Source of the DNA: a virus
IMG/VR virus record: IMGVR_UViG_3300007517_000020
Location: 1-35,458 of that record
Direction: 5' to 3' (one strand)
DNA length: 35,458 nt
This document shows, piece after piece, positions 15,119 through 33,017 of the stretch. Both the position numbers and the translations under genes were made by a program. Positions within the stretch are counted from its first letter, which is position 1; every line of letters begins with the position of its first letter. Below the pieces are notes generated by a model. It searched no databases. It was not told the DNA's origin and was given only the letters and a program-made list of their open reading frames with translations.

Positions 15119-15356
15119 GCTGTGCCAATTCTGGGGATGCGGCACACAGGCTACTGATCCGCTGCAACCTCGGGGCAGTTGGCACCATTTTGCCCAACGG
15201 CTGAAACAACGAGGATTGGTGGTGAGTGCGAAGGGTGCAGGGGGTGCAGGCCTCCGTAAAAACTTTTTGGGTGATGTGCGATGTTTTTTATTTTTTATCG
15301 CAACGTCTGAATATTTCTCAAACGGAGCCTGTCACCCCCTGCACCCCTCGCACCCT
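15119..15356. repeat. Origin-like iteron element, copy 1 of 3
   Basis: About 238 bp, closely similar to 15453-15690 and more distantly to 32782-33017, all in the same orientation. In order it has a small inverted repeat (TGTGCC / GGCACA), a diverged middle, a left arm of three 9-bp iterons of the type GTGCRRGGG (15226-15252), an AT-rich core of about 74 bp with an internal hairpin (GCGAT / ATCGC around a T-run loop) and a right arm (15327-15353) that is the inverse complement of the left. Iterons in inverted arms flanking an AT-rich core are the form of SaPI origins and resemble phage P4 ori and crr. The plus-strand frame 14964-15389 that crosses it is not likely to be a gene. Confidence 0.75.
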
Positions 15357-15402
15357 GCATCTGAAACCCTAGGCATCCCTGGCTACTAATTGAGGTTAGT
15401 CA

Positions 15403-15444
15403 GGCCGAATAAACTACCTCAGATCTGAGGTAGTTTATTCGGCC
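15403..15444. repeat. Perfect 42-bp palindrome without a loop
   Basis: Two 21-bp arms meet at CAGA/TCTG (15423/15424) and every base is matched; the flanking bases are not complementary. There is no T-run on either side, so it is not an ordinary terminator. It lies in the 96-bp gap between origin-like copies 1 and 2. A telomere-resolution site, a dimer binding site or a recombination site are possible; see findings. Confidence 0.9.
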
Positions 15445-15452
15445 GCGCTTTT

Positions 15453-15690
15453 GCTGTGCCAATTGCAGGGATGTGGCACACAGGCTACCGCTGGCCCTGA
15501 ACCTCCTACCGACTGGCTGCATTTTGCCCATAGCCTGAAACCCCGAGGATCGGTATCAAGTGCGAGGGGTGCAGGGGGTGCAGGCCTCCGTAGAAACTTT
15601 TTGAGTGATGTGCGATGTTTTTTATATTTTCTCGCATCGCTTAAATATTTCTCAAACGATGGCTGTCACCCCCTGCACCCCTCGCACCCT
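15453..15690. repeat. Origin-like iteron element, copy 2 of 3
   Basis: Same length and order as copy 1. The entry inverted repeat is TGTGCCA / TGGCACA, the iteron arm starts at 15560 with GTGCGAGGG GTGCAGGGG, the right arm is 15661-15687, and the first 21 bases of the arms are perfectly complementary. The inner hairpin is GCGATG / CATCGC with a T-rich loop. Differences between copies keep the pairing, which points to a selected structure. The plus-strand frame 15451-15726 crosses it but has no ribosome site. Confidence 0.75.
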
Positions 15691-15778
15691 GACCTAAAGT
15701 GCTATCCTGAGCACAGGCCCGGTTAGGCCGGTTGATTGGTTGGTTGTGGTTTCCTGTTTTGCGCTCTCCGAAGACGAA

Positions 15779-15808
15779 CCCCCTGTAGATTGAGTAATCT
15801 ACAGGGGG
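15779..15808. terminator. Terminator-like hairpin
   Basis: A 13-bp perfect inverted repeat (CCCCCTGTAGATT / AATCTACAGGGGG) with a 4-nt loop, followed on the plus strand by CTTTGCTTTG. It lies just past the 3' end of the minus-strand genes 15835-16637 and shields the origin region from their transcription. Confidence 0.7.
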
Positions 15809-15834
15809 CTTTGCTTTGCGGGGGTGGTGTGGCT

Positions 15835-16038
15835 CTAGCGTCCTTGCATGGCCTCTTCGGGAAATTGATTAAAGAGGCGGTGTAGCTCGATGGTGCCTCG
15901 TCGTTGTAGCGTGTAGAGGCCCAGATTATCCACAGGGGCAATGTAGTCGGCTAGCGCGGCCAGGTCGGCGTCGCTGAGTTGCACCCGCTGAAGTCTGTAG
16001 ATTCGCCGTAGCGTTGCCATTTTCCTTTTGGCATTCAT
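15835..16038 (-). CDS. Small basic hypothetical protein (67 aa)
   Basis: Begins MNAKRKMATLRRIYRLQRV, strongly basic, followed by a helix DADLAALADYIAP and a C-terminal helix. It may bind nucleic acid; no family is recognised. The ATG at 16038 overlaps the stop of the preceding gene in ATGA, which supports this start over one at 16020. Confidence 0.55.
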   Translation of the reverse strand: MNAKRKMATLRRIYRLQRVQLSDADLAALADYIAPVDNLGLYTLQRRGTIELHRLFNQFPEEAMQGR

Positions 16039-16190
16039 GCCGCTACCTCATCGGGAATATCTTGAACCCATCGCACCATGTTGGGCGCTTGCTTTGTCAG
16101 GGCGATCACCGACTCCCATGCGGCATCGTCGTCAGCGGCTTGCACTGTGCCCCTAGTGCCGTTGCGTAACTTGAAAAACCAAATGCTCAT
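16035..16190 (-). CDS. Small hypothetical protein (51 aa)
   Basis: The frame begins MSIWFFKLRNGTRGTVQAAD and continues with DDDAAWESVIALTKQAPN and a C-terminal PDEVAA. It is preceded by a purine-rich AGAGAGAAGAGAGA ribosome site and overlaps the next gene by ATGA. The upstream flank shares 14 bp exactly (16196-16209) with the flank of the gene at 16224-16637 (16642-16655). The function is unknown. Confidence 0.55.
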   Translation of the reverse strand: MSIWFFKLRNGTRGTVQAADDDAAWESVIALTKQAPNMVRWVQDIPDEVAA

Positions 16191-16223
16191 TCTCTCTCTT
16201 CTCTCTGTAGTGGTTGTGGCGGG

Positions 16224-16637
16224 TCAGGATGCGCGGCGGGGGGCTGCGAGTAGGGGCTTGAGGTTGTGAGGGATAGCGCGGCCCTTGCTGCGCCAGTGCT
16301 CTAGGTCTGCGAACCTTGTTAGCTCATCGGCCTCAACTTGCAAATCTAAGGCCCAATACCTTTCTTTGAGAATTGCAGAGCACAGCCATGATTTCGTTTT
16401 CCCTACCCTCTGGGATATCTCTGAGTAGGTCAGGTACTGGCCCCGGCGCTTTGCCGCGTTGATGACACCCGCCGCCCGCCCCAAGGCAGCGGGGTCGGCG
16501 CAGCTAGTGATGTTCCCTGCCTGTGGGGGCGTAGGAGCACACCCCGCCGCTGTCAAAACCTCAATGTTGTGAGTCAGCAATTCAGATGCCGCCACAAGGG
16601 GCATGCCGTACTTGTTATGAGTCTTTGCCTTAGGCAT
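16224..16637 (-). CDS. Helix-turn-helix protein (137 aa)
   Basis: The stretch TYSEISQRVGKTKSWLCSAI (about residues 69-88) reads as a helix-turn-helix; the sequence before it is low complexity and the C-terminus is basic. It may be a regulator or DNA-binding accessory protein. The start is the first ATG after GAGAGAAGAG. It is one of three minus-strand genes between the repressor and the origin region. Confidence 0.55.
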   Translation of the reverse strand: MPKAKTHNKYGMPLVAASELLTHNIEVLTAAGCAPTPPQAGNITSCADPAALGRAAGVINAAKRRGQYLTYSEISQRVGKTKSWLCSAILKERYWALDLQVEADELTRFADLEHWRSKGRAIPHNLKPLLAAPRRAS

Positions 16638-16732
16638 TATGCTCTTCTCTCTGTAAAACTATTGATTCAACCTAGCCTCAAACCGTAGCCATTTTCCTTT
16701 CACAAAGTGAAGATTCAACTAAGAAACCTCCT

Positions 16733-16960
16733 TCACTTTGCCGCTTTGTTGTCGTCACCCCCTAGGCACAATTCCATCACTTCATCAAAGGTGAGTCCCA
16801 GCGCCCGGGCAATCGCCTCCCAGTACCGGGCACTAGGAACCCGCGCCCCACGCTCCCAATTGCAGTAGCCTTGGCCGCTAACGCCTAGCAGGTTACCCGC
16901 TGCCCTCAGTGACAGGTGCTTACCCTGTCGCCAGTCTTTTAGCATCTGCTTTATTTCCAT
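16733..16960 (-). CDS. XRE-family repressor (75 aa)
   Basis: A short cI/Cro-like helix-turn-helix protein: MLKDWRQGKHLSLRAAGNLL followed by GVSGQGYCNWERGARVPSA and WEAIARALGLTFDEVMEL, the usual five helices. I take the ATG at 16960 (MEIKQML); upstream ATGs at 16978 or a start at 17023 would add residues that overlap the promoter. It is divergent from the ribbon-helix-helix gene at 17049 and the promoters overlap, the layout of a lysogeny or copy-control switch. It has no cleavage domain, so inactivation would not be LexA-like. Confidence 0.75.
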   Translation of the reverse strand: MEIKQMLKDWRQGKHLSLRAAGNLLGVSGQGYCNWERGARVPSARYWEAIARALGLTFDEVMELCLGGDDNKAAK

Positions 16961-16970
16961 ATAGATGCTT

Positions 16971-16986
16971 GTCCACATGTGTTGAC
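16971..16986. promoter_or_regulatory. Candidate operator (16-bp near-palindrome)
   Basis: GTCCACATGTGTTGAC is complementary to itself in 12 of 16 positions. It lies just downstream of the repressor -10 box and overlaps the -35 box of the rightward promoter, a position from which one protein could control both. Confidence 0.4.
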
Positions 16987-17023
16987 ACTTTCGATTATAG
17001 TGCAGTAAGGTATAGAAGAACAA
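16982..17023. promoter_or_regulatory. Overlapping divergent promoters
   Basis: Leftward: TTGTTC (17018-17023 on plus as GAACAA), 18-bp spacer, TATAAT (16994-16999), reading into the XRE repressor. Rightward: TTGACA (16982-16987), 18-bp spacer, TAAGGT (17006-17011), reading into the ribbon-helix-helix gene. The rightward -10 is weak; the leftward is good. Confidence 0.5.
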
Positions 17024-17048
17024 GAGCGGCAGAGAAGGAAGATAACCG

Positions 17049-17240
17049 ATGAGCGTTACCCAGAAATTAACTGTTACGTTTCACATGCCTGAGTCCGACT
17101 ACCTAAAGCTTTTGGCTAAGTGCGAGAAAGAACGGATCGCTATGACCACGGCCATGCAAGAAGCGGTAGGCGGTTATGTCAATAGCCCTGCATCAGTTGA
17201 AACCATTGGCCAAATGCTGACTCATATCAGCATTGATTAA
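17049..17240 (+). CDS. Small ribbon-helix-helix protein (63 aa)
   Basis: LTVTFHMPESDYLKLLAKCE then RIAMTTAMQEAVGGYV reads as a strand followed by two helices, the Arc/CopG fold. GAAGGAAG precedes the ATG. Being divergent from the XRE repressor, it may take the Cro-like or antirepressor position. A weak hairpin followed by TTATTTTTTT lies at 17283-17310. Confidence 0.65.
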   Translation: MSVTQKLTVTFHMPESDYLKLLAKCEKERIAMTTAMQEAVGGYVNSPASVETIGQMLTHISID

Positions 17241-17321
17241 GCCAAAGGAAGCCCAAACCACGGGCAACAGGGGCGCGGCTGCACAACGCGCAAAGGTTGT
17301 TTATTTTTTTAGGTGTTTGTG

Positions 17322-17624
17322 ATGGCTGCAATTGGAATAGTGTCGGTTAGCCTAGGGCTGCTTGCTGTTGGTGTTCTGCTTAATGGGTTTGTCCTTAGCA
17401 TTTTATGGGGGTGGTTTATTGTTGGAGTGTTTGGCTTGCCAGCTTTGACTGTTGGGCAAGCCATAGGGGTGAGCATGGTGATTGGATTTTTGACTTATCA
17501 GCAAACGCATGACTCGGCAAAGAAGTCATGGGCTGAAGTATTGAGCGCTGGCCTTGGCTTGGCTATTCTAAAGCCATTGATCACGCTGGCATTTGGTTGG
17601 GTTGTCTATACCGTTGCGTTTTAG
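17322..17624 (+). CDS. Hypothetical membrane protein (100 aa)
   Basis: Three or more hydrophobic segments: MAAIGIVSVSLGLLAVGVLL, LSILWGWFIVGVFGLPALTV and a C-terminal LGLAILKPLITLAFGWVVY. The hydrophilic loop QQTHDSAKKSWAE lies between. The ATG at 17322 is preceded by TTTTAGGTGTTTG; the same leader sequence precedes the next gene. The function is unknown; a holin is conceivable but nothing specific supports it. Confidence 0.55.
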   Translation: MAAIGIVSVSLGLLAVGVLLNGFVLSILWGWFIVGVFGLPALTVGQAIGVSMVIGFLTYQQTHDSAKKSWAEVLSAGLGLAILKPLITLAFGWVVYTVAF

Positions 17625-17633
17625 GTGTTTGAT

Positions 17634-18014
17634 ATGCGTGGACTAATTTTTTCATCCCTTACCGCTGCTCTATCCCTAGGCATAGCCATAGGCATCGCTG
17701 CCGCCGCCGCCATTGGTGCATCATCGGGGCAACCCCCAGCGGCCCGGTGTGGCACCGCAGGGGAGAACCCCAGGGAGTGCGTCCGAGAAGGGGCACAGCA
17801 GGCCAGCGGGCGCAGTTGGATGGCGGGTGCCGCCGCAGTCATGGGTCTATCCCTAGGCCTATCCGCCGCCGCCGCCCTTGGTAACCAGCAAGCCAGCGAA
17901 ACCGGTTGGATAGCAGGTAGTGAACCTGGCTGGGGGTCGCTGGTCGCTACCCGGTGCCCACGGGGTGAGCGCGGGCGTCGTGATTGCTTCCCTGAGACAG
18001 CGCCTCGGGGGTAG
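17634..18014 (+). CDS. Hypothetical membrane protein, Ala/Gly-rich (126 aa)
   Basis: Two Ala/Gly-rich hydrophobic segments (residues about 5-30 and 65-85) separated by a loop with cysteines and a short basic C-terminus (CPRGERGRRD). The ATG at 17634 has the same AGGTGTTTG leader as the gene before it. Not recognised; the pair probably forms a membrane unit. Confidence 0.5.
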   Translation: MRGLIFSSLTAALSLGIAIGIAAAAAIGASSGQPPAARCGTAGENPRECVREGAQQASGRSWMAGAAAVMGLSLGLSAAAALGNQQASETGWIAGSEPGWGSLVATRCPRGERGRRDCFPETAPRG

Positions 18015-18069
18015 GGCGATGGCGGGGTGCGTCGGTGATTATGTTGATGCTGTTTTAGAGGATTTGACC

Positions 18070-18258
18070 ATGTTCTACGCCACCCTTGGCCCCGACCAAA
18101 GCCTCACGATTGACGGTGGGCCATACGCAGACCTAGATACTGCGATCAAGCATTGCCCCCCAGGGCGCAACATCTGGGATAGTTCCGCCAATAAATACCT
18201 AAACAGGGGGTCGCTGATGCAGGGCGAAGTGGTTTGGCTATCTGTAGAGGTTTCATGA
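18070..18258 (+). CDS. Small hypothetical protein (62 aa)
   Basis: The ATG at 18070 (MFYATLGPDQSL) follows GAGG at 8 nt, the reason I prefer it to an ATG at 18019. The sequence has a strand-turn-helix start and a basic middle (KHCPPGRNIWDSSANKYLNR). The family is not recognised. The stop overlaps the ATG of the next gene by 4 bp. Confidence 0.5.
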   Translation: MFYATLGPDQSLTIDGGPYADLDTAIKHCPPGRNIWDSSANKYLNRGSLMQGEVVWLSVEVS

Positions 18259-18455
18259 TCAACCCCGATGATATGATCCCGATTGAGTTGATGATGCTAA
18301 AGACTGGGCGCGGTCTATACCACTTCAGCCCGTCTGAATTTAAGGCACAGTATCTAGAGATAGCCGACCGCGCATCATGGGCGCTGCATAGGGCGCATGC
18401 AATGGGGCAAGGCGTAGAATTGGCGGGGTATCTGTGGATGAGAGGGAAAGTCTAG
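18255..18455 (+). CDS. Small hypothetical protein (66 aa)
   Basis: Starts MINPDDMIPIELMMLKTGRG; helical with a Tyr/Phe-rich middle. ATGA overlap with the preceding gene and a GAGG site 6 nt upstream of the ATG support it. Unknown function. Confidence 0.5.
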   Translation: MINPDDMIPIELMMLKTGRGLYHFSPSEFKAQYLEIADRASWALHRAHAMGQGVELAGYLWMRGKV

Positions 18456-18515
18456 CCGCCTAGGATTGGTTCACCGTTCTAGAGCTAAAATAAAGTTGTC
18501 GCCGTGGGGGCAAAT

Positions 18516-18839
18516 ATGTGGCCGTGGCAAACAGCAAAACTCTTTGAGAAAATTAAGGAACTTATGGCAACATTGCAAGCATACAAGGATTTGATTGCGG
18601 CGGGCTTTGCCAATATTGCGGCAGAGCAGCGGGAAGTGGGGCAGAAAATAGCAGAGCTAAAGGCCAAGATTGATGAGCTTATCGCCCAACCACCTGCCGA
18701 CCTGGGAGAGGCGTTTCTTGAACTGCAAGGGCTGGTAGATGCAATCTCTACCGTTTACGATGCCGACGTTGCCACTGAACTCGCCCCAGAGCCGACACCA
18801 GAACCAACACCAGACCCCGAGCCTACACTCCCTGGCTGA
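18516..18839 (+). CDS. Coiled-coil protein with Pro-rich tail (107 aa)
   Basis: After MWPWQTAKLFEKIKELMATL the residues about 30-60 (AAEQREVGQKIAELKAKIDE) form heptads of a coiled coil and the end is the repetitive PEPTPEPTPDPEPT, a disordered spacer. It is probably a structural or assembly accessory protein; no family is recognised. A GTG 12 bp upstream is an alternative start. Confidence 0.55.
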   Translation: MWPWQTAKLFEKIKELMATLQAYKDLIAAGFANIAAEQREVGQKIAELKAKIDELIAQPPADLGEAFLELQGLVDAISTVYDADVATELAPEPTPEPTPDPEPTLPG

Positions 18840-18879
18840 GATAGAATAGGCACGCCCGAGAGCTAAGCTACGCCCCGCC

Positions 18880-18911
18880 CCGCCGGTTATCCGGTGGGGT
18901 TTTGTTTTGCC
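18880..18911 (+). terminator. Intrinsic terminator
   Basis: A 9-bp stem with one G-U pair (CCCCGCCGG / CCGGTGGGG), a TTAT loop, then TTTTGTTTT. It ends the plus-strand transcript of genes 17049-18839. Confidence 0.75.
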
Positions 18912-18974
18912 GCCAGCGAGACTGATGTGCCAGTGCCCTGTGCCAGATATATTCAGAACTTACCCCAAGTCCTA

Positions 18975-19003
18975 TTGCCAAGCCCCTGTTTATTGCGTAA
19001 TAT
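18975..19003 (+). promoter_or_regulatory. Promoter TTGCCA-N17-TAATAT
   Basis: A -35 TTGCCA (18975-18980), 17-bp spacer and -10 TAATAT (18998-19003), 26 bp before the ATG of the gene at 19029. It follows the terminator, so the two genes 19029-19753 form their own unit. Confidence 0.5.
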
Positions 19004-19028
19004 AGAAGGGCAGCAAGTGAGAAGCACC

Positions 19029-19385
19029 ATGGCACTATTGAGCAACCCTGACCGCCGCGCAGTTTATAACAAGCCCCAGATTAGGGCGCTGTTTACAGTG
19101 CAAGACCAGGTTACAAATGAGCTTTGCGACTGGCTCTTGGAAGAGTTTGAAATGTATGGCAATCAGGGCATGATTATTGCTCGCCCTGTGGTTGAGGCTG
19201 CAATTGCTGCCCGATTCAAAGCCACTGCCCCCGGAGCGCCTTCGGTGCAGGTAAACCTGAAAGTCTTTGCTGATTACCTGCTGATTGATTCCCAGGTGCT
19301 AGCTCAGCAAATGAATGAGCGCAATGAGTGGGATGCTATATTGGCCGAGCAGCAGCGCGATGAAGACTATGCAAAGCACGCCTAA
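19029..19385 (+). CDS. Hypothetical protein (118 aa)
   Basis: The ATG at 19029 (MALLSNPDRR) follows AGTGAGAAG and the promoter; an upstream in-frame start at 18894 lies in the terminator. The sequence is helical (QVTNELCDWLLEEFEMYG, VVEAAIAARFKA). No family is recognised. The stop TAA shares its A with the next ATG (TAATGA), so the two genes are coupled. Confidence 0.55.
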   Translation: MALLSNPDRRAVYNKPQIRALFTVQDQVTNELCDWLLEEFEMYGNQGMIIARPVVEAAIAARFKATAPGAPSVQVNLKVFADYLLIDSQVLAQQMNERNEWDAILAEQQRDEDYAKHA

Positions 19386-19753
19386 TGAGCGCTCCTGAAT
19401 CCTACCCAAACCTGAGCAACGCAGGCAAGGGTAGGCCGCCTAAGGGTGAGCGCCGCCGCATCACCACGCAAGTTTCCCCCGATGTTGCAGAGTATCTAGA
19501 AACTCTAGGGGGCGGGCCTCGACGGATCGGGGCGGCAATTGAAAAATTAGTACAGGAGAGAATAGCTATGCAACGCACTGAATCGGCTCAAGAATTGCTT
19601 GGGCAATCAGCCAACGGCATGAAGGTAGGCGACATTGTGAGCATTGCTCATGTGCAGTACGTGATCTCTGATTGGGAGGGAGACACCCTCACTCTAGATG
19701 CCTTGCCAGAAGATGAAAAAGTGAAGGCTGAGTTTGTGTTGATTTTCAAGTAA
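19385..19753 (+). CDS. Ribbon-helix-helix-like protein with SH3-like tail (122 aa)
   Basis: Residues about 15-60 (KGRPPKGERRRITTQVSPDV, then RRIGAAIEKLVQERI) have a basic arm, a strand and helices like a ribbon-helix-helix domain; the C-terminal MKVGDIVSIAHVQYVISDWE is strand-rich and could be a small barrel. It is likely DNA-binding, perhaps a regulator of the upstream promoter. Coupled to the gene before it. Confidence 0.5.
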   Translation: MSAPESYPNLSNAGKGRPPKGERRRITTQVSPDVAEYLETLGGGPRRIGAAIEKLVQERIAMQRTESAQELLGQSANGMKVGDIVSIAHVQYVISDWEGDTLTLDALPEDEKVKAEFVLIFK

Positions 19754-19766
19754 TTCCCACCCTAAC

Positions 19767-19803
19767 CCGCCCCGCCGCCTCAACCATGGGGCGGCTTCTC
19801 TTT
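19767..19803 (+). terminator. Terminator at the convergent junction
   Basis: A 7-bp inverted repeat (CCGCCCC 19767-19773, GGGGCGG 19788-19794) followed by CTTCTCTTT. It overlaps the 3' end of the minus-strand EAL gene and ends the plus-strand pair. Confidence 0.6.
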
Positions 19804-20514
19804 GCCAGCCCGCGCGATCGCATCCCAGGGTATTGCCAACCCATAAAGCGCCCCTTGCCCCAGGTCGCAGCCCCAGTCCCTTAGCTGGTCGGCCTGCTCT
19901 TCACACTCCACCCACTCGGCGGTAGTCATCAGATCGTAAGTTTCTGCGAACTCAAGCAGTAATCGGCAGGCCGTAGCGGTGCGCTCATCGGTGAGGATGT
20001 TTTGGGTGAGGCCTCTACAAAGTTTGATGCCGTGAAACAGCGGGCCATGTTCGCCAACGATTCGATCAAGCCCGCCGTGTTCAGAGCTGCCGATATCGTC
20101 GGCCTTGATGGTGTGCTGCAGTGCGATCGCTTTGATCACCGCAACCGATGCCGGGGTGAGCCGCACCGATTCAAGAATTTCCACATGCACCCGCAGATGG
20201 TGGGGCAGTGCGGCAAGCAGCGCGGCTAACCCCGGCAGCGCTAGGGCTTTTTGGTTGAGGTTGAGACTAACCCACAGGGGCGGGGGTGCGCTTGCCAGCA
20301 TCGCGTCAACATCGGCCAGCTGCTGCTGAATCCACACCGCCTGAAGGGAGTGCTCTTCGATCAGATTGGCAATAGCGGGCGGCGGTATCTTACCCCACCG
20401 GGCCAGCGCCTCGTAGCCTTCTAGTTGCCCTGTGCTCAGATTGTGGATGGGTTGGTAGTGAAGCTTGATTTCGCCTAGGGATAGCGCTGCCTTGATTGAA
20501 TCGTAATCTGGCAC
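19780..20514 (-). CDS. EAL-domain c-di-GMP phosphodiesterase
   Basis: A 244-residue stand-alone EAL domain with the catalytic set: EALARW (35-40), Asn85, Glu112 (VEILES), DDIG (139-142), Lys164 (IKLCRG), Glu200 and Glu203 (AEWVECEEQ) and Gln220. All the residues that bind Mg and c-di-GMP are present, so it should hydrolyse c-di-GMP to pGpG. In cyanobacteria c-di-GMP controls motility and sessile growth, and a phage enzyme could change this or degrade signals used in defence. The GTG start (20514) is coupled to the upstream gene by TAGTG. The FHA gene is next to it; a GGDEF protein lies at 30717-31226. Confidence 0.85.
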   Translation of the reverse strand: MPDYDSIKAALSLGEIKLHYQPIHNLSTGQLEGYEALARWGKIPPPAIANLIEEHSLQAVWIQQQLADVDAMLASAPPPLWVSLNLNQKALALPGLAALLAALPHHLRVHVEILESVRLTPASVAVIKAIALQHTIKADDIGSSEHGGLDRIVGEHGPLFHGIKLCRGLTQNILTDERTATACRLLLEFAETYDLMTTAEWVECEEQADQLRDWGCDLGQGALYGLAIPWDAIARAGKEKPPHG

Positions 20515-20855
20515 TAATTACCCCAAATTGCAACAACTACGACCACACCCGCTGCCACCAATCCCGCCAGCACAACCAACTGGATAACCTGTGGCAATGC
20601 CTTGAACCAATCCCAGAACGCTGGCCCCCAGTCGGCGGCTAGGCTGAACATGGTTTCAGGGGGCGCGTCATCCGTAGGCCGTTTCTCTTCGCGGCGGCCA
20701 TGTGCCTGTAGTCCTGTTGATACGCCATCGTCAGAGTCGCCATCGTTTTGGCTCATTGTGTCGTCGACATCGAAAGAGCACCTGACCATCGCCGCCTGGC
20801 AGCCGAACTGAATCCGGGTGCGGTCTTTGATTTCGTAGGGGACATTGGGGCGCAC
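20514..20855 (-). CDS. C-terminal part of frameshifted FHA protein, with TM segment
   Basis: Residues 1-35 (RPNVPYEIKDRTRIQFGCQA) match the last strands of an FHA domain whose first part is in another frame at 20753-21139. After this come a Asp/Ser/Pro-rich linker and a C-terminal membrane helix (VIQLVVLAGLVAAGVVVVVA). A GTG start at 20855 has no ribosome site, so I regard it as the continuation of the FHA gene and not an independent gene. The stop overlaps the GTG of the EAL gene. See finding on the frameshift. Confidence 0.5.
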   Translation of the reverse strand: MRPNVPYEIKDRTRIQFGCQAAMVRCSFDVDDTMSQNDGDSDDGVSTGLQAHGRREEKRPTDDAPPETMFSLAADWGPAFWDWFKALPQVIQLVVLAGLVAAGVVVVVAIWGN

Positions 20856-21139
20856 CTATAGAGATTGTCGCCCGATGATTCAATGTAGGTGCCGTTGGTG
20901 CTGATGAGGTCGAGCACTACCCACAAATACATAGGCTCACCCTCAAGGACAGTCGCTTCTTTGTCAATTGCCGCCATGATTTTGGCATGCTGTTTCGAGA
21001 CTGGGCCTAGCCGGAAAACGATGTCGCAGGTAGGCGACCGGCCCACTGCCCAGTACCCACAGCTAGGTGGGTGCTCAGCATCCAAAACACGGAGCGAGTC
21101 ACTTTGGGCAAGAAAATAAACGGCAAGCCTGGTACTCAT
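20753..21139 (-). CDS. FHA-domain protein, N-terminal part
   Basis: The FHA signature is clear: GRSPTCDI (residues 33-40), SKQHA (48-52) and STNGTY (80-85); FHA domains bind phosphothreonine. The frame then leaves the FHA pattern at about residue 94 and ends in an Arg/Ser-rich tail, while frame 20514-20855 continues the domain, so the true product is probably a fusion of both parts by a one-base correction near 20860. The gene is the second of a minus-strand operon with the gene at 21188-21631 and leads into the EAL gene. Confidence 0.65.
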   Translation of the reverse strand: MSTRLAVYFLAQSDSLRVLDAEHPPSCGYWAVGRSPTCDIVFRLGPVSKQHAKIMAAIDKEATVLEGEPMYLWVVLDLISTNGTYIESSGDNLYRCAPMSPTKSKTAPGFSSAARRRWSGALSMSTTQ

Positions 21140-21187
21140 TAGTCACAGATTTCTTTTGGTTGGGGGCTGGGGCGATGCACCTACCGC

Positions 21188-21631
21188 CTATTCTACCTGT
21201 TGAGGCTCAATCGCTTGCACTGGGCCTAAATCCAGCACCACCCTGAGATTTTTATCGCTGCCCCAATCGTAATAGGAGGCGTTGCACCTGGGGGGCAACG
21301 TCCCCACCCACCCATCTAGCCGATAGTGTGCAGGCGATTGGCTGTAGGGCACCGCCGCCGCGACGAGCTGCGACCGGGACTGGGCTAGCTTGGCCAGAAA
21401 ATCTTTGGCGTCGTTTCTATTCAAGAATCCACACTCAAAGCGGATAAAGCCCCCGGAGATCTCAAAGACTATAGCCCCGTCTACGCAGCTAGGATTGGTG
21501 CTGCCCCCGCGAGCAATCAGGTTGGCGACCTTGACCCTCTGAAAGGCTTGCTCTCCAATGCTCTGCAACTGTGCATCAGTGGCGGCGCAGGCGATGCGGA
21601 TAACTCGCAGGAAGCTACGGAAGAAGTTCAT
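21188..21631 (-). CDS. Hypothetical protein with hydrophobic N-terminus (147 aa)
   Basis: MNFFRSFLRVIRIACAATDA could be a signal or membrane anchor. The rest is mixed with several aromatic and cysteine residues (CNASYYDWGSDKN). It is the first gene of the FHA-EAL operon, diverging from the terminase promoter. No family is recognised. Confidence 0.5.
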   Translation of the reverse strand: MNFFRSFLRVIRIACAATDAQLQSIGEQAFQRVKVANLIARGGSTNPSCVDGAIVFEISGGFIRFECGFLNRNDAKDFLAKLAQSRSQLVAAAVPYSQSPAHYRLDGWVGTLPPRCNASYYDWGSDKNLRVVLDLGPVQAIEPQQVE

Positions 21632-26856: not shown

Positions 26857-26928
26857 ATACTCTTAAACCTGCGCTAATTCTAGCCTATACCCGGCTCACC
26901 GCTGCAAGTGGCGGCTAGTGTTGGGGCT

Positions 26929-28107
26929 ATGTCCCTACGCTTTGATAGAGCCAGCCTAAATGATGTGGAGCGGTTGCCCGATGGGCGGCTCAGAGTTCGG
27001 GCAACGTTTAGCCGGGTGGGGCCACTCAACTACTTGCGGGCCGATGGCAGTTTTCAGCAGGAAATTGTCACGCCTGAAGAATTATTCCGTGAGGATTCGC
27101 TGGCAACGGCGGGCCTTGCTGTTGTCACTCTTGGCCATCCCCCCGATGGCGTAGTGACACCAAAGAACTGGAAAAAATACGGTGTTGGGGCCAGCGGTTC
27201 TGAGATCAAAGCCAACCGCGTCGATGGCCTAGTGTCGGTCGTCTTTGTCGTTGGCGATGAGGAGGCTATCGAAGCGGTTGAGGAGGGCCGCGCCACTGAG
27301 GTATCGGCAGGCTACAGCACAACCGTAGTGCAGCGGGGCGATGGGCTGTTCTATCAAACCGACAGGCAATACAACCATCTGGCCCTAGTCGAGCGCGGTA
27401 GGGCTGGCCCCACCGTGAGGCTACACCTGGACGCTGCCGATGACTGGGCATGGCAGCAGGCCGATGACGACGACGATCAAACCACTAACGCCGATGGAGG
27501 CTGTATGAAGTACAAAGGTTTTGAAATGGATGAGGGCGCGGTTGACGCTTTCAAAAAGATGGAGGCCGATATGGCAGCCATTAAAGAAGACATGAAGGGT
27601 ATGAAGACCAAAAAGGATGCTCTTGAGGGCAACCGCATTGAAACCCTAGAGGGTGAAAACGAGGGGCTAAAACTTAGCCTTGATTCACTCACCGCAGAAC
27701 TGGCCACTCGCATGGATGCCACCGCTGTTGAGGCTGCTGCTACGGCCCGCATGGATGCCTACGCTGAGTGCCTCCCATTGCTTCCCGATAGCGTTAACTT
27801 TGATGCCACCATGGCCCCTATTGACTGGCGCAAAGCTGCGATCACTGCCCATAACAAAACCGTGAATCTTGACAACAAGAGCGATGACTTTGTGAATGGC
27901 ATGTTTGAGGTCATGCAATCGGTTGGCACTTCCGTAGTGGCCAAGACCGATGCGGCTGCAACTGCTGACTTCCGCCGGGTGCTAGAGGGCGCGGCTGTCG
28001 GCGGTGACCACAATGGCGCGAGCCTGACCCGTGATGATAGTGCCGAGTTTGAGTCTCAGCAACGGGCTGATGAAGACGAAATCCACAAACTATGGGGGGC
28101 TAAGTAA
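26929..28107 (+). CDS. Capsid maturation protease/scaffold (DUF2213)
   Basis: A 392-residue protein. The N-terminal part starts MSLRFDRASL and has LAVVTLGHPP, VSAGYSTTVV and the NHLALVERGRAGPTVRL motif of the DUF2213 phage proteases. After an acidic linker (DDDDDQ) comes a coiled coil (about residues 195-260) typical of scaffolds. A GGAGG site with an in-frame ATG at 27505 lies at the junction and would give the scaffold alone (about 200 residues). I chose ATG 26929 over GTG 26908 because family members start at the equivalent place. Confidence 0.75.
   Translation: MSLRFDRASLNDVERLPDGRLRVRATFSRVGPLNYLRADGSFQQEIVTPEELFREDSLATAGLAVVTLGHPPDGVVTPKNWKKYGVGASGSEIKANRVDGLVSVVFVVGDEEAIEAVEEGRATEVSAGYSTTVVQRGDGLFYQTDRQYNHLALVERGRAGPTVRLHLDAADDWAWQQADDDDDQTTNADGGCMKYKGFEMDEGAVDAFKKMEADMAAIKEDMKGMKTKKDALEGNRIETLEGENEGLKLSLDSLTAELATRMDATAVEAAATARMDAYAECLPLLPDSVNFDATMAPIDWRKAAITAHNKTVNLDNKSDDFVNGMFEVMQSVGTSVVAKTDAAATADFRRVLEGAAVGGDHNGASLTRDDSAEFESQQRADEDEIHKLWGAK
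27496..27507 (+). promoter_or_regulatory. Internal ribosome site for nested scaffold
   Basis: GGAGG followed after 4 nt by ATG, in frame with the protease gene, at the end of the acidic linker. It gives MKYKGFEMDEG..., the usual start of a scaffold. Confidence 0.5.
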
Positions 28108-28619
28108 TGTTTGGTTCTTACACTGATGTTCAAGACAAAGACCTGGTGGCAGGCTCTCAGTTCAAAGTTACCCAGGGCGCTAACCCTGTCTCTCTGATTA
28201 ATGGCGGGGCGGGTGTCATCGCCGCCGGGTTCGGTGTGGTTTATGGCGCGGTTGCAGGTGAGGCAATTCTCCCTGCTGGCGCTGGCGTGTTTGCAGGCGT
28301 TGTCGCCTTGCCTCACACCATTGAGGTTCGCGCTGCTGGGTCTGTGGGCGCATCCCTTGACGCGGGCGGGCGCTATGGCTACCCCGTCAACTACGAGATG
28401 GCGGTTGCTCAGGGCGATACCTGGGCTGTATGGGTAGACGGCACCGTTGTTCAAGGCAACCCCGTATTCCTCAATCACACGGTCGCGACTTCTGTAATCG
28501 GTGCATTCCGCGCCACTGCCAACAGCGCCAATGCTCAAGCGGTGCCTAACGCGGTCTTTGTGCTGGGCGCTGTCGGCACCGCTGCCAACCTGGCTGTTGC
28601 TGTAATTCAATTTAACTAG
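28107..28619 (+). CDS. Capsid decoration/structural cement protein
   Basis: A 170-residue, strand-rich protein, low in charged residues with an AGVIAAGFGVVYGAVAGEA stretch, like the DUF2190/decoration proteins that lie before the major capsid gene in many phages. The stop of the scaffold gene overlaps its ATG (TAATG). Role by position and composition. Confidence 0.6.
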   Translation: MFGSYTDVQDKDLVAGSQFKVTQGANPVSLINGGAGVIAAGFGVVYGAVAGEAILPAGAGVFAGVVALPHTIEVRAAGSVGASLDAGGRYGYPVNYEMAVAQGDTWAVWVDGTVVQGNPVFLNHTVATSVIGAFRATANSANAQAVPNAVFVLGAVGTAANLAVAVIQFN

Positions 28620-28631
28620 GGAGATAATCAA

Positions 28632-29612
28632 ATGCCTACTGGTGGCTCTGTTACGTTCAGACGATTACAGCAACGGAAAAACGAGGCATTGCGCGAGCGT
28701 CGGCAGCCTAAACGGTTTGCTGATTCAACCTTTGTGCCAACGTCGTTTGACATTCGCCCTGGCGCTCGTACTTTTGTGCAAGACCGGGTGCAAGAGTTTG
28801 GCCAAGCGCTTGTACTGTCCCCCGATGCCGCTGATTTTCCCCTGGTGGAAATCAAGGTTGATGAGGTGGAATATAGGATCTTTATGATCGGCGCGGGGTA
28901 CAAGCTGACCTATGGCGAAACTCAGGCCCAAGGGTTTGCAGAAGCCAACGGCCAGCAGTTTGGCACCCGCGATGTAAAGATGGGCACCGTGGTTACAGTC
29001 ATCACTGAGAAGATGAATGACCTGGCCGCGTTTGGTGATACCCGGCTGGGCATTACCGGGGCGTTAAATGATACGGGGGTAACGCTGGTAAACTCGTCAT
29101 TCAACCCCTACGACCGTGCGACAAATACGGCTGAAGCGGTAGCGGCTTGGTTCCTTGATTCGGTTGGCGGCATCGCGGTATCTACCAACAATGCTGAGTA
29201 TCCGACCACCGCAGTGATAGCTACTGAGTTGTGGAATGAACTATCGGCGCGGCTAATGCCGCAGACTGGCGAGACCGTCCTTAGCGTCATTTTGCGTACC
29301 CAGCGCGAAGCCGCTAGCCAGAATCAAAACGGGATCACCGACATATTTCGCTCTACAGAGTGTCGGTCGGTGAACCTAGAGGCCAATGGCGCACAGTCGG
29401 CAGCAACCAACAAAGATCGGATCTGGCTATACCCCCAGTTTTCATATATTCTGGAAAAACATGCCCTTGCTGGTGTGATCCAGTCATATCCTGAAGATTG
29501 GTGCGGCCAGGGGGCGGGTTATAAAACCTACCCTATGTTTGGCTGCCAGTCGCAGTTGATCTACAACTTCCCCGCCGCGATCCGCTATGTTGACCACCCT
29601 AAGAAGTCGTAG
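28632..29612 (+). CDS. Major capsid protein (DUF2184 family)
   Basis: A 326-residue protein. The C-terminal part (HALAGVIQSYPEDWCGQGAG, then YPMFGCQSQLIYNFP) and the central ADFPLVEIKVDEVEYRIFM stretch are typical of DUF2184/HK97-fold capsid proteins. It is encoded after the decoration gene with AGGGAGATAA before the ATG. It should form the icosahedral shell. Confidence 0.8.
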   Translation: MPTGGSVTFRRLQQRKNEALRERRQPKRFADSTFVPTSFDIRPGARTFVQDRVQEFGQALVLSPDAADFPLVEIKVDEVEYRIFMIGAGYKLTYGETQAQGFAEANGQQFGTRDVKMGTVVTVITEKMNDLAAFGDTRLGITGALNDTGVTLVNSSFNPYDRATNTAEAVAAWFLDSVGGIAVSTNNAEYPTTAVIATELWNELSARLMPQTGETVLSVILRTQREAASQNQNGITDIFRSTECRSVNLEANGAQSAATNKDRIWLYPQFSYILEKHALAGVIQSYPEDWCGQGAGYKTYPMFGCQSQLIYNFPAAIRYVDHPKKS

Positions 29613-29620
29613 GTTACTAG

Positions 29621-30007
29621 ATGCCCATTGTTATCTACAAGTCTGAGAATTGTTACCCCCAGCGAACGGGTGCGCTTGCCTTTGACGGCATTCAGCTAAC
29701 GCCGGGGGTGAACCACCTTTCTGATGCCGACCTTGCCAAGCTACAGGCTCACCCCGACTTTGGGGCATACCAAGAGCGCAAGGCGTTGTCGGTGAAAGAG
29801 AGTGAGCCAGACAAAGAAGTGCAGACGGTGCCACTGTCTGAGGTGCCCAAAGACCTCAGCGCCTACAACGTGAGCGAGGCTGACGACATCGTGGATAATA
29901 CCCATGATGTTGATGTGCTCAACCGATGGCTGATTGGCGAAACCCGATCAACGGTGCGGAAAAACATCACTCAGCGGAAAAAGGCCATTGAGTCTGGGGT
30001 GATTTAA
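29621..30007 (+). CDS. Hypothetical head protein (128 aa)
   Basis: A strand-rich N-terminus (VIYKSENCYPQRTGALAFDG) is followed by an acidic linker and a C-terminal helical part (VDVLNRWLIGETRSTVRKNI) like the HeH/LEM-type helices found in small head proteins. Position between capsid and head-completion genes suggests a head-assembly role. Confidence 0.55.
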   Translation: MPIVIYKSENCYPQRTGALAFDGIQLTPGVNHLSDADLAKLQAHPDFGAYQERKALSVKESEPDKEVQTVPLSEVPKDLSAYNVSEADDIVDNTHDVDVLNRWLIGETRSTVRKNITQRKKAIESGVI

Positions 30008-30009
30008 CG

Positions 30010-30384
30010 ATGGCGGTGCTTTTTGACACTTTCACCATCGACTTTCCTCAGTTCACTACGGTGGATGAGGATGCTTTCGATTCGGCGCTGGCGATCGCAC
30101 GGTTGCTGGCCAGCGCCGACGCATGGGGCGAACTAGCCGACCGCGCCCACTCGCTGCTGACGGCTCACATGCTTGCCCTCCGTGCCCAAGCTGGGCTATC
30201 TGGGGGGCGCAGCACAGGCAACCTAACCGGCGTTCGCATCCCAAGTGAGGTTGACTATTCATTCAGCAACACCGCAACCAGCGGGGCCAAAAGTAGCGGC
30301 GATGAAGGGCTGAAAAGCACAACCTATGGCCAAGAGTTTTTACAACTGAAACAATTTAAGTTTTTGCCCTTTGGCATCTTTTAG
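30010..30384 (+). CDS. Head-tail adaptor (DUF4054)
   Basis: A 124-residue protein: DFPQFTTVDEDAFDSALAIA, WGELADRAHSLLTAHMLALR, SVDYSF-like VDYSFSNT and TTYGQEFLQL are the conserved blocks of the DUF4054 adaptor family. It would sit on the portal and close the head. A terminator follows. Confidence 0.75.
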   Translation: MAVLFDTFTIDFPQFTTVDEDAFDSALAIARLLASADAWGELADRAHSLLTAHMLALRAQAGLSGGRSTGNLTGVRIPSEVDYSFSNTATSGAKSSGDEGLKSTTYGQEFLQLKQFKFLPFGIF

Positions 30385-30409
30385 CGTTCACTGAGAACAC
30401 CTAAACCCT

Positions 30410-30438
30410 ACCCCTGGCTACGGTCAGGGGTTTCTTTT
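30410..30438 (+). terminator. Terminator of the head operon
   Basis: A 7-bp inverted repeat (ACCCCTG 30410-30416 / CAGGGGT 30425-30431), 8-nt loop, then TTCTTTT. It follows the DUF4054 stop. Confidence 0.7.
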
Positions 30439-30450
30439 GGGCAATGAAAA

Positions 30451-30467
30451 GCCCCTCGGTTGAGGGG
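30451..30467. repeat. Hairpin spacer R1 (GCCCCTC-GGTT-GAGGGG)
   Basis: First of five related hairpins in the accessory array; it lies 13 bp past the stop of the 55-aa gene at 30481. Confidence 0.8.
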
Positions 30468-30480
30468 TGGGTGGTGGGTG

Positions 30481-30648
30481 CTAGAGTCCAGTTGCTGCCT
30501 TGAACGCGGCCAAGTCGTCGCCATCCAGGTCATAATCTCTGCCGCTGGTCATGTAGACCACCCAGCACTCAGGATCTCGGCGGTCAATTTCAGAGATTTG
30601 GGCCAGAACCAGTGTGAAGCCAGAGTCAGAGAAGGTGAAGAATTTCAT
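30481..30648 (-). CDS. Small acidic protein (55 aa)
   Basis: The frame begins MKFFTFSDSGFTLVLAQISE and ends with DYDLDGDDLAAFKAATGL. Its start follows an AAGAG and hairpin spacer R2, its stop precedes spacer R1. No family is recognised. Confidence 0.5.
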   Translation of the reverse strand: MKFFTFSDSGFTLVLAQISEIDRRDPECWVVYMTSGRDYDLDGDDLAAFKAATGL

Positions 30649-30674
30649 GGGTTAGTGCTCTTTTTATTTGTGCG

Positions 30675-30719
30675 GTGAGAGTGAACGGTAGCCCTCGGTT
30701 GAGGGGCGGGGGTAGGTTA
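30675..30719. repeat. Hairpin spacer R2
   Basis: Contains GTGAGAGTGAACGGTAG followed by CCCTCGGTTGAGGG (core 30691-30707) and ends at the stop of the GGDEF gene. The left part matches R5 exactly over 14 bases. Confidence 0.8.
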
Positions 30720-31226
30720 GGGGTTCGCATAATGAACACCGCCGCGATTATTGTCTGCCTTGGCATTTTGCACCATCCCAGACGCGGTGCGAACGGCTTC
30801 TCTCCAATCGCCGCCGACGATTTCAGCCACCCCACATGTGACGCCAATGCTTTGGGCTTTGAATAGCGCCACGATACTTGCAGCAGCTTGGGAGGCTTCG
30901 GCAGCAGGGCAAGCGTAGATAAATTCATCGCCTGAGTACCATCGGGCAATGAGGGTGCATCCCCTGGTGTGGCGGATATGGGCGCATGCTTCCCGAATCC
31001 GCTTGTCTACCCCTTCATATCCCCACACTTGGTTGAGATCGTGCATTTTATCAACGTCCCAGAAGACGATCGCGCCTTCTGTCGCGGGGGACGCCTCTAG
31101 GGCAACCCGAGTCAATATCCCATAGGTGGGATCTATCTTCATCGCGTTAACCTGGTTTTGCGCCAGCGTCAACGCGATGATTAACTGATCTCGGGTCATG
31201 TTTGCCATGTCGGTCATTGGGGTCAT
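30717..31226 (-). CDS. GGDEF-domain protein, diguanylate cyclase-like (SGDEF)
   Basis: A 169-residue stand-alone GGDEF domain. DPTYGILTRVALE (residues 32-44, the DPLTGLLNR-like start), FWDVDKMHDLN (residues 55-65, with the metal-binding Asp) and WYSGDEF (about 96-101) are present, with A/G at the first position of the signature replaced by Ser; variants with Ala or Ser here are reported active in other proteins. It should make c-di-GMP or bind GTP, and complements the EAL gene at 19780. It lies in the array of small accessory genes with R2 after it. AAGGG precedes the ATG. Confidence 0.75.
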   Translation of the reverse strand: MTPMTDMANMTRDQLIIALTLAQNQVNAMKIDPTYGILTRVALEASPATEGAIVFWDVDKMHDLNQVWGYEGVDKRIREACAHIRHTRGCTLIARWYSGDEFIYACPAAEASQAAASIVALFKAQSIGVTCGVAEIVGGDWREAVRTASGMVQNAKADNNRGGVHYANP

Positions 31227-31252
31227 CAGAAGCCCTTTTGGGGAGAGTGGTA

Positions 31253-31291
31253 GGGAAACGGTAGCCCCTCGGTTGAGGGGCGGGGTGGCTA
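31253..31291. repeat. Hairpin spacer R3
   Basis: GGGAAACGGTAG followed by GCCCCTCGGTTGAGGGGC (31264-31281) and the stop codon of the 97-aa gene. Confidence 0.8.
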
Positions 31292-31582
31292 GGCTGAAGC
31301 CTCAGATATTTTCTGCCAGACGTTATTAGTGGACTCAGAGTCTAATGAAATATCGCCCAGGTCAAAGCCCTTTAGCAGTCCCAAAACTTTTTCGCCGTCA
31401 TAAAACCCAGAAACATGATCGTCGTAAATTGCCACTATGCAGATGGTGTCAGCAACCACGTTAGGCACGGCTGCCATCAGTCCAGAGATAGGGTCTGTGT
31501 CGGTGTCGATAGAAAGCCTGATAAATTCATCAACGATCAGGTCGGCAGTCTTAGCAGTGCGCTTGTCTAGTTCGGTAGTCAT
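31289..31582 (-). CDS. Hypothetical protein (97 aa)
   Basis: MTTELDKRTAKTADLIVDEF is helical and acidic; a central hydrophobic strand (DTICIVAIYDDHVSGFYDGE) follows. No family is recognised. It is served by the promoter at 31625-31653. The stop is in R3. Confidence 0.55.
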   Translation of the reverse strand: MTTELDKRTAKTADLIVDEFIRLSIDTDTDPISGLMAAVPNVVADTICIVAIYDDHVSGFYDGEKVLGLLKGFDLGDISLDSESTNNVWQKISEASA

Positions 31583-31611
31583 GGGTCGGTGGCCTTTTGC
31601 GTTATTTGCTT

Positions 31612-31656
31612 GTCTATGTCTCCCATCATAAGCCCCTGAACTCGTAACGTCAACCC
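31612..31656. repeat. 45-bp direct repeat with promoter, copy 1
   Basis: Exactly identical to 32704-32748; similarity continues for about 20 bp beyond. It contains the promoter TTGACG-N17-TATGAT on the minus strand. Confidence 0.9.
31625..31653 (-). promoter_or_regulatory. Promoter TTGACG-N17-TATGAT, copy 1
   Basis: -35 TTGACG (31648-31653), 17-bp spacer, -10 TATGAT (31625-31630). It reads toward the genes 31582 to 30481. Confidence 0.7.
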
Positions 31657-31666
31657 ACTAACCAAT

Positions 31667-31924
31667 CTATTTGCTAGGGATGCGATCGCGCTTCAACCTT
31701 GCCCGATACGCCGCCTGCCTCTCAGCCCCGCTGACATAGGTTGCCCTTGGCCCTGGCTGCTGTGGGGCTGGGGTGTACTTGCGGCCACAGCCCTTGCATC
31801 GGCGGCGGGCCGACCCAGCGGCGGTTTTGCCAGCGCTGGTACTGTCGGGATGTCGGCAATGGGGGCAGTTCATGGGGCTAGAGATTGAATAGGTCAGCAT
31901 CTTCACACACCGGGGGCATATCAT
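31667..31924 (-). CDS. Zinc-ribbon protein (85 aa)
   Basis: CPRC, NCPHC and RRCKGCGRKYTP form two zinc knuckles like the N-terminal zinc ribbon of IS1 InsA, followed by a basic tail (RQAAYRARLKRDR). I take the ATG at 31924 so that the first CxxC is included; a TTG at 31966 would add 14 residues. No transposase or inverted repeats are nearby, so it is more likely a small regulator. It ends before the duplicated promoter. Confidence 0.55.
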   Translation of the reverse strand: MICPRCVKMLTYSISSPMNCPHCRHPDSTSAGKTAAGSARRRCKGCGRKYTPAPQQPGPRATYVSGAERQAAYRARLKRDRIPSK

Positions 31925-32009
31925 AGGGCAGCTCTGTGGTGTGATCACTGCTTGAGGTTGCTCCAAGGTTCTTTTGAGTTATTTTATTTTTAATGACGTA
32001 CAAAGCCCC

Positions 32010-32126
32010 TTAGAGACTTTCATAAGCGTCGTAGCTTATCGGCTTCAAGGTAAAGGCAGCAAGCTGTAGAGCATATTCGATCTGTTCTACTTCTTTTTTA
32101 TTCAAAGCTATTGTTTCGTCATTCAT
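32010..32126 (-). CDS. Very small hypothetical protein (38 aa)
   Basis: The frame begins MNDETIALNKKEVEQIEYAL and ends AYESL, a single amphipathic helix. No ribosome site stands out. It fills an otherwise empty gap in the array, and spacer R4 lies upstream. Confidence 0.35.
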   Translation of the reverse strand: MNDETIALNKKEVEQIEYALQLAAFTLKPISYDAYESL

Positions 32127-32154
32127 GGCTTTTAGATGGCGGCTCTGTGGGGTG

Positions 32155-32190
32155 AAACGGTAGCCCCTCGGGTGAGGGGCTGCGGGGCTA
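32155..32190. repeat. Hairpin spacer R4
   Basis: AACGGTAG then GCCCCTCGGGTGAGGGGC (32163-32180) and the stop of the 49-aa gene. Confidence 0.8.
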
Positions 32191-32337
32191 GGCGATTATC
32201 TCGGCGGTGTAATTTGCTGAGTCCATGTTTCGCTCTACCCCAGCCTGCACCTTCTCTGCCTTGCGTTGCCCTCCTGAGGTAATCGGGATTTCACGTATAG
32301 TTTCGCCTGTGCCTCTCTCGGTGATTCTGATCATCAT
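32188..32337 (-). CDS. Small hypothetical protein (49 aa)
   Basis: The frame begins MMIRITERGTGETIREIPIT and ends NYTAEIIA, with two basic strand-like segments. AAGGA lies before the ATG pair at 32332-32337. Stop in R4. Confidence 0.5.
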   Translation of the reverse strand: MMIRITERGTGETIREIPITSGGQRKAEKVQAGVERNMDSANYTAEIIA

Positions 32338-32360
32338 GGTCTGGTAGTCCTTAGGTAGTG

Positions 32361-32407
32361 GTGAGAGTGAACGGAATCCCCTCGGTTGAGGGGCGGGGTG
32401 GGTTAAC
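32361..32407. repeat. Hairpin spacer R5
   Basis: GTGAGAGTGAACGG followed by TCCCCTCGGTTGAGGGGC (32377-32394), then GGGGTGGGTTAA, just before the stop of the gene at 32416. Confidence 0.8.
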
Positions 32408-32415
32408 TTATGACT

Positions 32416-32670
32416 TCAGCTATCTAGTTGGGAATCTCCAAAAATATCTTCAGGCTCCACGCCGTCCCAGCCTGAATTATCTTGATTCTCGGGGCGGTAC
32501 CCCGGAAGCAAACAAGCCAAGGCGACAACGTGGCGAGCGCCACCGTAAGTGGCAGCGTAATCCGCTGCCTCAATTGAGGGCTGAGAAGTTGTGCAGAACT
32601 CTTCGAGACGAGGCTGATTAGGAAACTTTTTAGAAACACGATTGGTGTAAATCACTTCGCAGGTGGGCAT
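32416..32670 (-). CDS. Hypothetical protein (84 aa)
   Basis: The ATG at 32670 (MPTCEVIYTNRVSKKFPNQP) follows GGAGA and the promoter at 32717-32745; upstream ATGs lie in the promoter. The C-terminus is acidic (GWDGVEPEDIFGDSQLDS). No family is recognised. Confidence 0.5.
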   Translation of the reverse strand: MPTCEVIYTNRVSKKFPNQPRLEEFCTTSQPSIEAADYAATYGGARHVVALACLLPGYRPENQDNSGWDGVEPEDIFGDSQLDS

Positions 32671-32703
32671 GGTCGGTGTCTCCGGGTAATTGGTCGATTG
32701 CTG

Positions 32704-32748
32704 GTCTATGTCTCCCATCATAAGCCCCTGAACTCGTAACGTCAACCC
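32704..32748. repeat. 45-bp direct repeat with promoter, copy 2
   Basis: Identical to 31612-31656, 1092 bp apart. It contains the second copy of the promoter. Confidence 0.9.
32717..32745 (-). promoter_or_regulatory. Promoter TTGACG-N17-TATGAT, copy 2
   Basis: -35 TTGACG (32740-32745), 17-bp spacer, -10 TATGAT (32717-32722). It reads into the gene at 32416-32670 and the array beyond it. Confidence 0.7.
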
Positions 32749-32781
32749 CTCAACCAAGCTATTTTGCCTTGGCCCGGTCGC

Positions 32782-33017
32782 GCTGTGCCACATTCCCGCG
32801 ATTGGCACACAGGCTACCGCTGGCGGGGCACCTCCTACCGCCTATCCCTAATTCACTCAAAGCCTGAAACAACGAGGATTGGTAGCGAGTGCAGGGGGTG
32901 CGAGGGGTGCAGGCCTTCGCTCAAACTTTTTGGACGGTGTGCGATGTTTTTATTTTTTCTCGCAACACCATTATTTTTCTCAATCAAAGGCCTGCTACCC
33001 CTGCACCCCTCGCACCC
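32782..33017. repeat. Origin-like iteron element, copy 3 of 3
   Basis: About 236 bp, the same order as copies 1 and 2: TGTGCCA / TGGCACA entry repeat, then the left arm of 9-bp iterons (GTGCAGGGG, GTGCGAGGG, GTGCAGGCC; the first two swapped in order compared with the other copies), an AT-rich core with hairpin GGTGTGCGA / TCGCAACACC and a T-rich loop, and a right arm CCCCTGCACCCCTCGCAC. It is more diverged and contains a stop in the frame that is open in copies 1 and 2, which argues against a coding role. It lies 17 kb from the others. Confidence 0.7.

Follow-up and report, generated by a model that had tools for sequence, protein, structure and literature searches.

Dispersed inverted-iteron elements linked to a D5/SF3-type helicase, candidate replication elements of the PICI/SaPI type in a probable cyanophage and its relatives

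The stretch of viral DNA analysed here, called the window, is IMG/VR record IMGVR_UViG_3300007517_000020 over its full 35,458 bp. It encodes a terminase, a portal, a head protease and a major head protein, and is probably a fragment of a larger genome; its relatives and a gene for a DUF5895 protein suggest that the virus has a cyanobacterial host. The replication module lies on the minus strand and comprises genes for a D5/superfamily 3 (SF3)-type helicase, a 302-aa protein, a Dda-like superfamily 1 (SF1) helicase and the DUF5895 protein. The window also holds three copies of an element in which inverted arrays of short repeats (iterons) flank an AT-rich core, and it is the relationship between this element and the D5/SF3-type helicase that concerns us.

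As first drawn, on the plus strand, copy 1 spans 15119..15356, copy 2 spans 15453..15690 (334 bp from copy 1, start to start) and copy 3, which lies among late genes, spans 32782..33017. The three align end to end over their full length, copy 2 being 83% identical to copy 1 and 77% identical to copy 3. They were also recovered by a scan for long-range inverted repeats that is blind to iterons, whose top three in the window are exactly these elements (scores 21, 21 and 18), with the arms of copy 1 found de novo at 15226-15257/15322-15353. Among 60 dinucleotide-preserving shuffles, none reached a score of 18 and one reached 14. Alignment and scan together confirm the three elements described in the initial annotation, and no other long-range inverted repeat of this kind occurs in the window.

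Within each copy is a conserved unit of ~130 bp (15225-15354, 15559-15688 and 32888-33016), consisting of a 27-bp arm, a core of 75-76 bp and the inverse arm. The left arm (15225..15251, 15559..15585 and 32888..32914, plus strand) is made of three 9-bp GTGCRRGGG iterons with a period of 9 bp, and the inverted right arm (15328..15354, 15662..15688 and 32990..33016, minus strand) of two exact iterons with a third that is degenerate. In the left arm, the iteron dinucleotides are GA, AG, AG in copy 1 and AG, GA, AG in copy 3; the swap of the first two iterons reported for copy 3 holds for its left arm but not for its right arm. The cores (15252..15327, 15586..15661 and 32915..32989, plus strand) measure 76, 76 and 75 bp, and their middle ~70 bp are 64-68% AT, against 45% for the window; the core of copy 1 is T-rich on the plus strand and carries an inner TGCGAT...ATCGCA hairpin. 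The order of parts originally proposed therefore stands for the inverted iteron arms and the AT-rich core with its inner hairpin, but the small inverted repeat placed ahead of them falls outside the conserved unit. It belongs to ~105 bp of upstream sequence that is common to the window copies only (63-73% identity) and absent from relatives, and it had no match in viral contigs. Between copies 1 and 2 there is a perfect 42-bp palindrome without a loop (GGCCGAATAAACTACCTCAGATCT..., 15403-15444), and just past copy 2 a strong intrinsic-terminator-like hairpin (15779-15808). The GC-skew minimum of the window, at ~16-17 kb, is near copies 1 and 2, which fits an origin around 15-17 kb, though it is confounded by the change of gene direction there.

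The DUF5895 gene (13443..14777, minus strand), which is the first of the replication operon and is syntenic in relatives, starts ~340-450 bp from copy 1. On the same strand lie the genes for the SF1 helicase (11580..13415; phrog_325, 1e-69; 51-56% identity in two relatives), for the 302-aa protein (10658..11566), which is conserved and syntenic in relatives and had no match in Pfam or PHROG, and for the D5/SF3-type helicase (8481..10661). The last of these, the presumed iteron-binding initiator, matches D5_N (6.5e-11), Pox_D5 (3.9e-5) and the DNA primase families phrog_6088 and phrog_864. Its C-terminal domain, delimited by alignment (9018..9464, minus strand), is presumed to be a winged helix that reads the iterons. 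AlphaFold modelled this domain with a predicted local distance difference test score (pLDDT) of 80 and a predicted template modelling score of 0.76; the best fold matches, to RFX-DBD and AsfvPrimPol, which are DNA-binding or D5-like proteins, were weak and non-significant. Modelling of the full-length helicase on three sequences gave a pLDDT of 39 and no usable fold, and a search of its sequence against the PDB yielded nothing useful.

The whole element had no match in phage or plasmid records. Relatives of the helicase were missed by single-protein scans and found by alignment-based searches, and the ~130-bp unit is present in four relatives that encode the window's D5/SF3-type helicase. The first is a 74.5-kb prophage of Nodosilinea sp. 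FACHB-131 (IMGVR_UViG_2914543266_000001), with six clear intergenic copies and a degenerate seventh in the helicase gene. This prophage shares its replication module with the window (helicase 39-59% and SF1 helicase 51% identical over the matched parts), whilst its terminase and portal are unrelated to the window's. All exact matches in the 6.2-Mb Nodosilinea host genome fall inside the prophage, and a search of 65 same-family and 390 same-class genomes gave clear matches only in Nodosilinea sp. FACHB-131, with one other hit, in another cyanobacterial genome (G081). Two further relatives are viral contigs: G395 (IMGVR_UViG_3300042561_001378, 78 kb; helicase 70% identical over its main part) with four copies, and G396 (IMGVR_UViG_3300037468_000493, 80 kb; helicase 62% identical) with five. 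The fourth, G017, is a cyanobacterial chromosome (helicase 62%), of which the 80 kb examined hold a single copy, with four iterons in one of its arms.

In G395, G396 and G017, and in degenerate form in the Nodosilinea prophage, a copy of the element is embedded in the 3' portion of the helicase gene, where the sequence encodes the linker that joins the SF3/C-terminal region to a conserved tail of the protein. Because four relatives hold one copy in this position, the element appears to be tied to this helicase, with the dispersed copies being additional. At L127:14580-14714, L135:11738-11871 and G017:C5:6950950-6951104 the origin-like element sits in the reading frame of the helicase, so that its palindrome is also translated and forms part of a protein linker.

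Copies within a genome are much alike, with a mean identity of 84% as against 53% between genomes (window, Nodosilinea and G395), and each set can carry its own letters: GGCCTCCG occurs in three of the four G395 copies (CCTTCG in the fourth) and GCTCTCG in four of the five G396 copies. The copies of G395 and G396 are similarly spaced along the genome and at least two are beside the same genes, the flanking protein being 95% identical at G395:13466/G396:29695 and 90% identical at G395:61568/G396:76119. This pattern looks like concerted evolution of the copies under one trans-acting factor.

The association with SF3 helicases extends to other phages. All IMG/VR contigs were searched, with no helicase criterion, for a looser pattern of two GGTGC iterons spaced 9 bp apart and opposed, across 78-108 bp, by two in inverted orientation. 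About two thirds of the matches fall within repeats of coding sequence, for instance in collagen-like genes; matches were sorted into coding and non-coding ones after they had been seen. Among the 15 unrelated non-coding matches, 13 (L060, L062, L065, L066, L068, L071, L072, L077, L089, L095, L097, L102 and L026) are within 1 kb, and mostly ~150 bp, of a gene matching D5_N, DUF5906, VapE or a DNA-primase PHROG. Most of these elements lie just past the stop codon of the primase-helicase gene; that of L065 overlaps the 3' end of the primase open reading frame (ORF), and the gap in L068 is 957 bp. As for the two exceptions, L064 looks like a chance match and L080 is near a contig end. By way of control, D5_N, DUF5906 or VapE was hit by none of 39 proteins beside coding matches and none of 27 beside matches to the reversed pattern, though the reversed-pattern set does include two DNA-primase-like Pfam families (Prim-Pol and DUF3987). 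Each of the other viral contigs, many of which are fragments, has a single matching stretch. In the non-cyanobacterial elements L060, L062, L071, L102 and L026, the cores contain alternating CG-rich palindromes such as GCGCGTGCGCGC.

Two bacterial genomes also have the element beside a helicase gene, Nonomuraea ceibae (D5) and Pseudolabrys (VapE). Matches to the bare motif in Streptomyces acidiscabies and in Acidobacteria were judged to be unrelated genomic repeats because no SF3 helicase was seen nearby. The full element was not encountered in genomes devoid of a P4/D5-type helicase, an occurrence that the initial annotation had named as counting against its proposal; elsewhere the bare motif is found in seemingly unrelated repeats.

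That proposal, of an origin with SaPI-like inverted iterons around an AT-rich region, is well supported by the 13 of 15 helicase-linked loci and by the in-gene copies of the four relatives. We consider it quite probable that the ~130-bp units act in cis as replication elements of the type found in phage-inducible chromosomal islands (PICIs) and Staphylococcus aureus pathogenicity islands (SaPIs), each bound by the phage's own D5/SF3 helicase. The α protein of phage P4 is an SF3 initiator of this general kind, with a winged-helix origin-binding domain, and needs two separate iteron regions, ori and crr. α also has a primase domain, and ori and crr are not duplicates of a single inverted-arm unit. 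The P4 iterons differ in sequence from GTGCRRGGG, and the window has three iteron regions in which separate ori and crr types were not seen.

The closer likeness is to the PICI/SaPI origins, in which an AT-rich region that melts is flanked by two sets of iterons and adjoins the initiator gene, and where a cloned pri-ori segment replicates (PMC6092414). Both the iteron layout and the tie between the origin and the gene for a phage-type initiator-helicase are shared (PMC6092414), and a cognate SF3 (D5/VapE-class) helicase is encoded in the same genome as the elements, as expected of such an origin. PICIs are satellites without capsid and terminase genes that depend on a helper, whereas here we are dealing with tailed phages that have their own capsid and terminase genes, a GTGCRRGGG iteron, 3 to 7 dispersed copies and, in the relatives, a copy within the 3' portion of the helicase gene. 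The plasmid pRN1 offers a further parallel, with an origin that is an extended palindrome or stem-loop of ~100 bp located 3' of a gene for a primase-SF3 helicase-winged helix protein and that works when moved on the plasmid; it and the putative origins of phages BIP-1 and BPP-1 resemble the window in having a palindrome-type element of ~100 bp tied to an SF3 helicase gene (PMC4234260). The pRN1 origin needs an intact stem-loop and has no iterons (PMC4234260), whereas in the elements described here the iterons are conserved, the pairing is not, and there are several copies.

By analogy with these systems, copies of the D5/SF3 helicase would bind both inverted 9-bp GTGCRRGGG iteron arrays through the presumed winged-helix domain at the C terminus and form rings on the AT-rich core of 75-78 bp, loading on both sides. 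Melting of the core by the helicase would then allow replication to start. The occurrence of this domain in an antirepressor fusion protein of the Nodosilinea prophage, described below, hints that it is a module able to read the element in different proteins, with competition for the element perhaps playing a part in regulation. The element may be regarded as belonging to the helicase gene, given an in-gene copy in four of the five genomes, with further copies dispersed over the genome, whose likeness would be maintained by gene conversion or by selection for recognition by a single initiator. An origin function is most likely for at least one copy; the others could be extra origins, or initiator-binding sites that tune replication in the manner of P4 crr.

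Several features weigh against the elements being origins of this kind. The origin of a PICI is immediately 3' of the initiator gene, whereas those of the window lie either upstream of the operon or in the late region, and the window's helicase gene lacks the in-gene copy. In the relatives, most copies are among late or unrelated genes, an odd placement for an origin. The AT content of the core, 60-68% in the window and Nodosilinea, is 54-58% in G395, and AT richness is absent from the high-GC L020 and L026. Finally, since the domain model had no significant fold match, the winged-helix assignment rests on the Pox_D5 match and on analogy.

The scattering of intergenic copies among late genes would also be expected if these were operator or silencer sites, at which a phage protein with the same DNA-binding domain controls transcription or genome conformation, replication being just one user. 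The Nodosilinea prophage has, between its copies 4 and 5, a gene for a protein in which the N-terminal domain of an antirepressor (Ant) is fused to a D5-type C-terminal DNA-binding domain (G001:C23:78765-79799; L010:3046-4080) that matches the C-terminal domain of the helicase (E 8.5e-10). The similarity maintained among paralogous copies would suit operators as well. However, the scan of other phages showed one copy, beside the helicase; the only match to the fusion protein among the window ORFs is the helicase; and no fixed placement relative to promoters was seen. An operator role as the main explanation is therefore improbable.

The long hairpin could alternatively specify a structured RNA or a bidirectional terminator. 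Its fold is very stable (z -7.7), its T-rich strand mostly runs along late transcription, and changes in the inner hairpin are compensated. The initial annotation held that differences between copies keep the pairing, which is borne out in the inner hairpin but not in the arms: 12 of 27 paired iterons agree in their dinucleotides, where 10.4 would be expected (P=0.28, nine copies), showing no covariation, and the swap in copy 3 affects one arm only. In the consensus fold of the window copies, 19 of 63 pairs are broken in at least one copy and two of 63 are changed on both sides. These figures do not support selection on arm pairing. The distance between the arms, on the other hand, is nearly fixed, at 75-78 bp in the nine copies, and this, with the unconserved arm pairing, favours protein-binding sites over an RNA or a conserved cruciform. 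There was no Rfam match, no terminator-like site was seen in copies 1 or 2, and each of the four relatives has one copy inside the helicase gene. RNA and terminator readings are thus poorly supported and very unlikely.

Inverted termini, between 1 and 7 copies per genome and an insertion in the linker of the helicase, absent from the window, bring to mind a mobile element resembling a miniature inverted-repeat transposable element, which would spread within phage genomes and whose terminal inverted repeats would be the arms. Such mobility would be compatible with origin function. As an explanation in itself we give it very little credence, since no consistent target-site duplication was seen in the flanks (read by eye), the matches in the Nodosilinea genome are confined to the prophage, G395 and G396 share the positions of at least two copies (one beside the 95% identical gene), and the link to SF3 helicases holds across phyla. 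Scattered partition sites (centromeres) like those of the phage-plasmid N15 would fit several inverted-repeat sites over a temperate phage genome, but this poorly supported idea is hardly credible, as no ParA/ParB-like protein was found among the 44 window and 53 prophage proteins scanned and an integrase-like gene lies at the prophage end.

Apart from the replication module, EAL, GGDEF and FHA domains are present among the window proteins, the likely carriers being the ORFs at 19780-20514, 30717-31226 and 20753-21139. G395 has a protein 59% identical to that of 19780-20514, and an EAL protein is also encoded in the Nodosilinea prophage. This suggests that the window phage carries genes for cyclic-di-GMP signalling.

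What is new here is the dispersed, multi-copy use of an origin-type element whose copies are alike within a genome and different between genomes. It is possible, though we put it forward tentatively, that in a lineage of cyanobacterial viruses the 3 to 7 dispersed and concertedly evolving PICI-type origins form a multi-origin replicon, in which one SF3 initiator fires or counts many sites and an antirepressor with a captured domain may compete with it. If the elements are origins, a type described as specific to phage satellites extends to tailed phages of several bacterial phyla, with a searchable signature of inverted GGTGC iterons ~100 bp apart beside an SF3 helicase gene. A single virus with up to seven near-identical origin-like elements provides a natural system that makes it testable whether phages can replicate from several origins, and how the evolution of initiator and sites is coupled. 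These observations suggest that cyanophages may begin copying their DNA at several places, or may spread a start-site switch over the genome.

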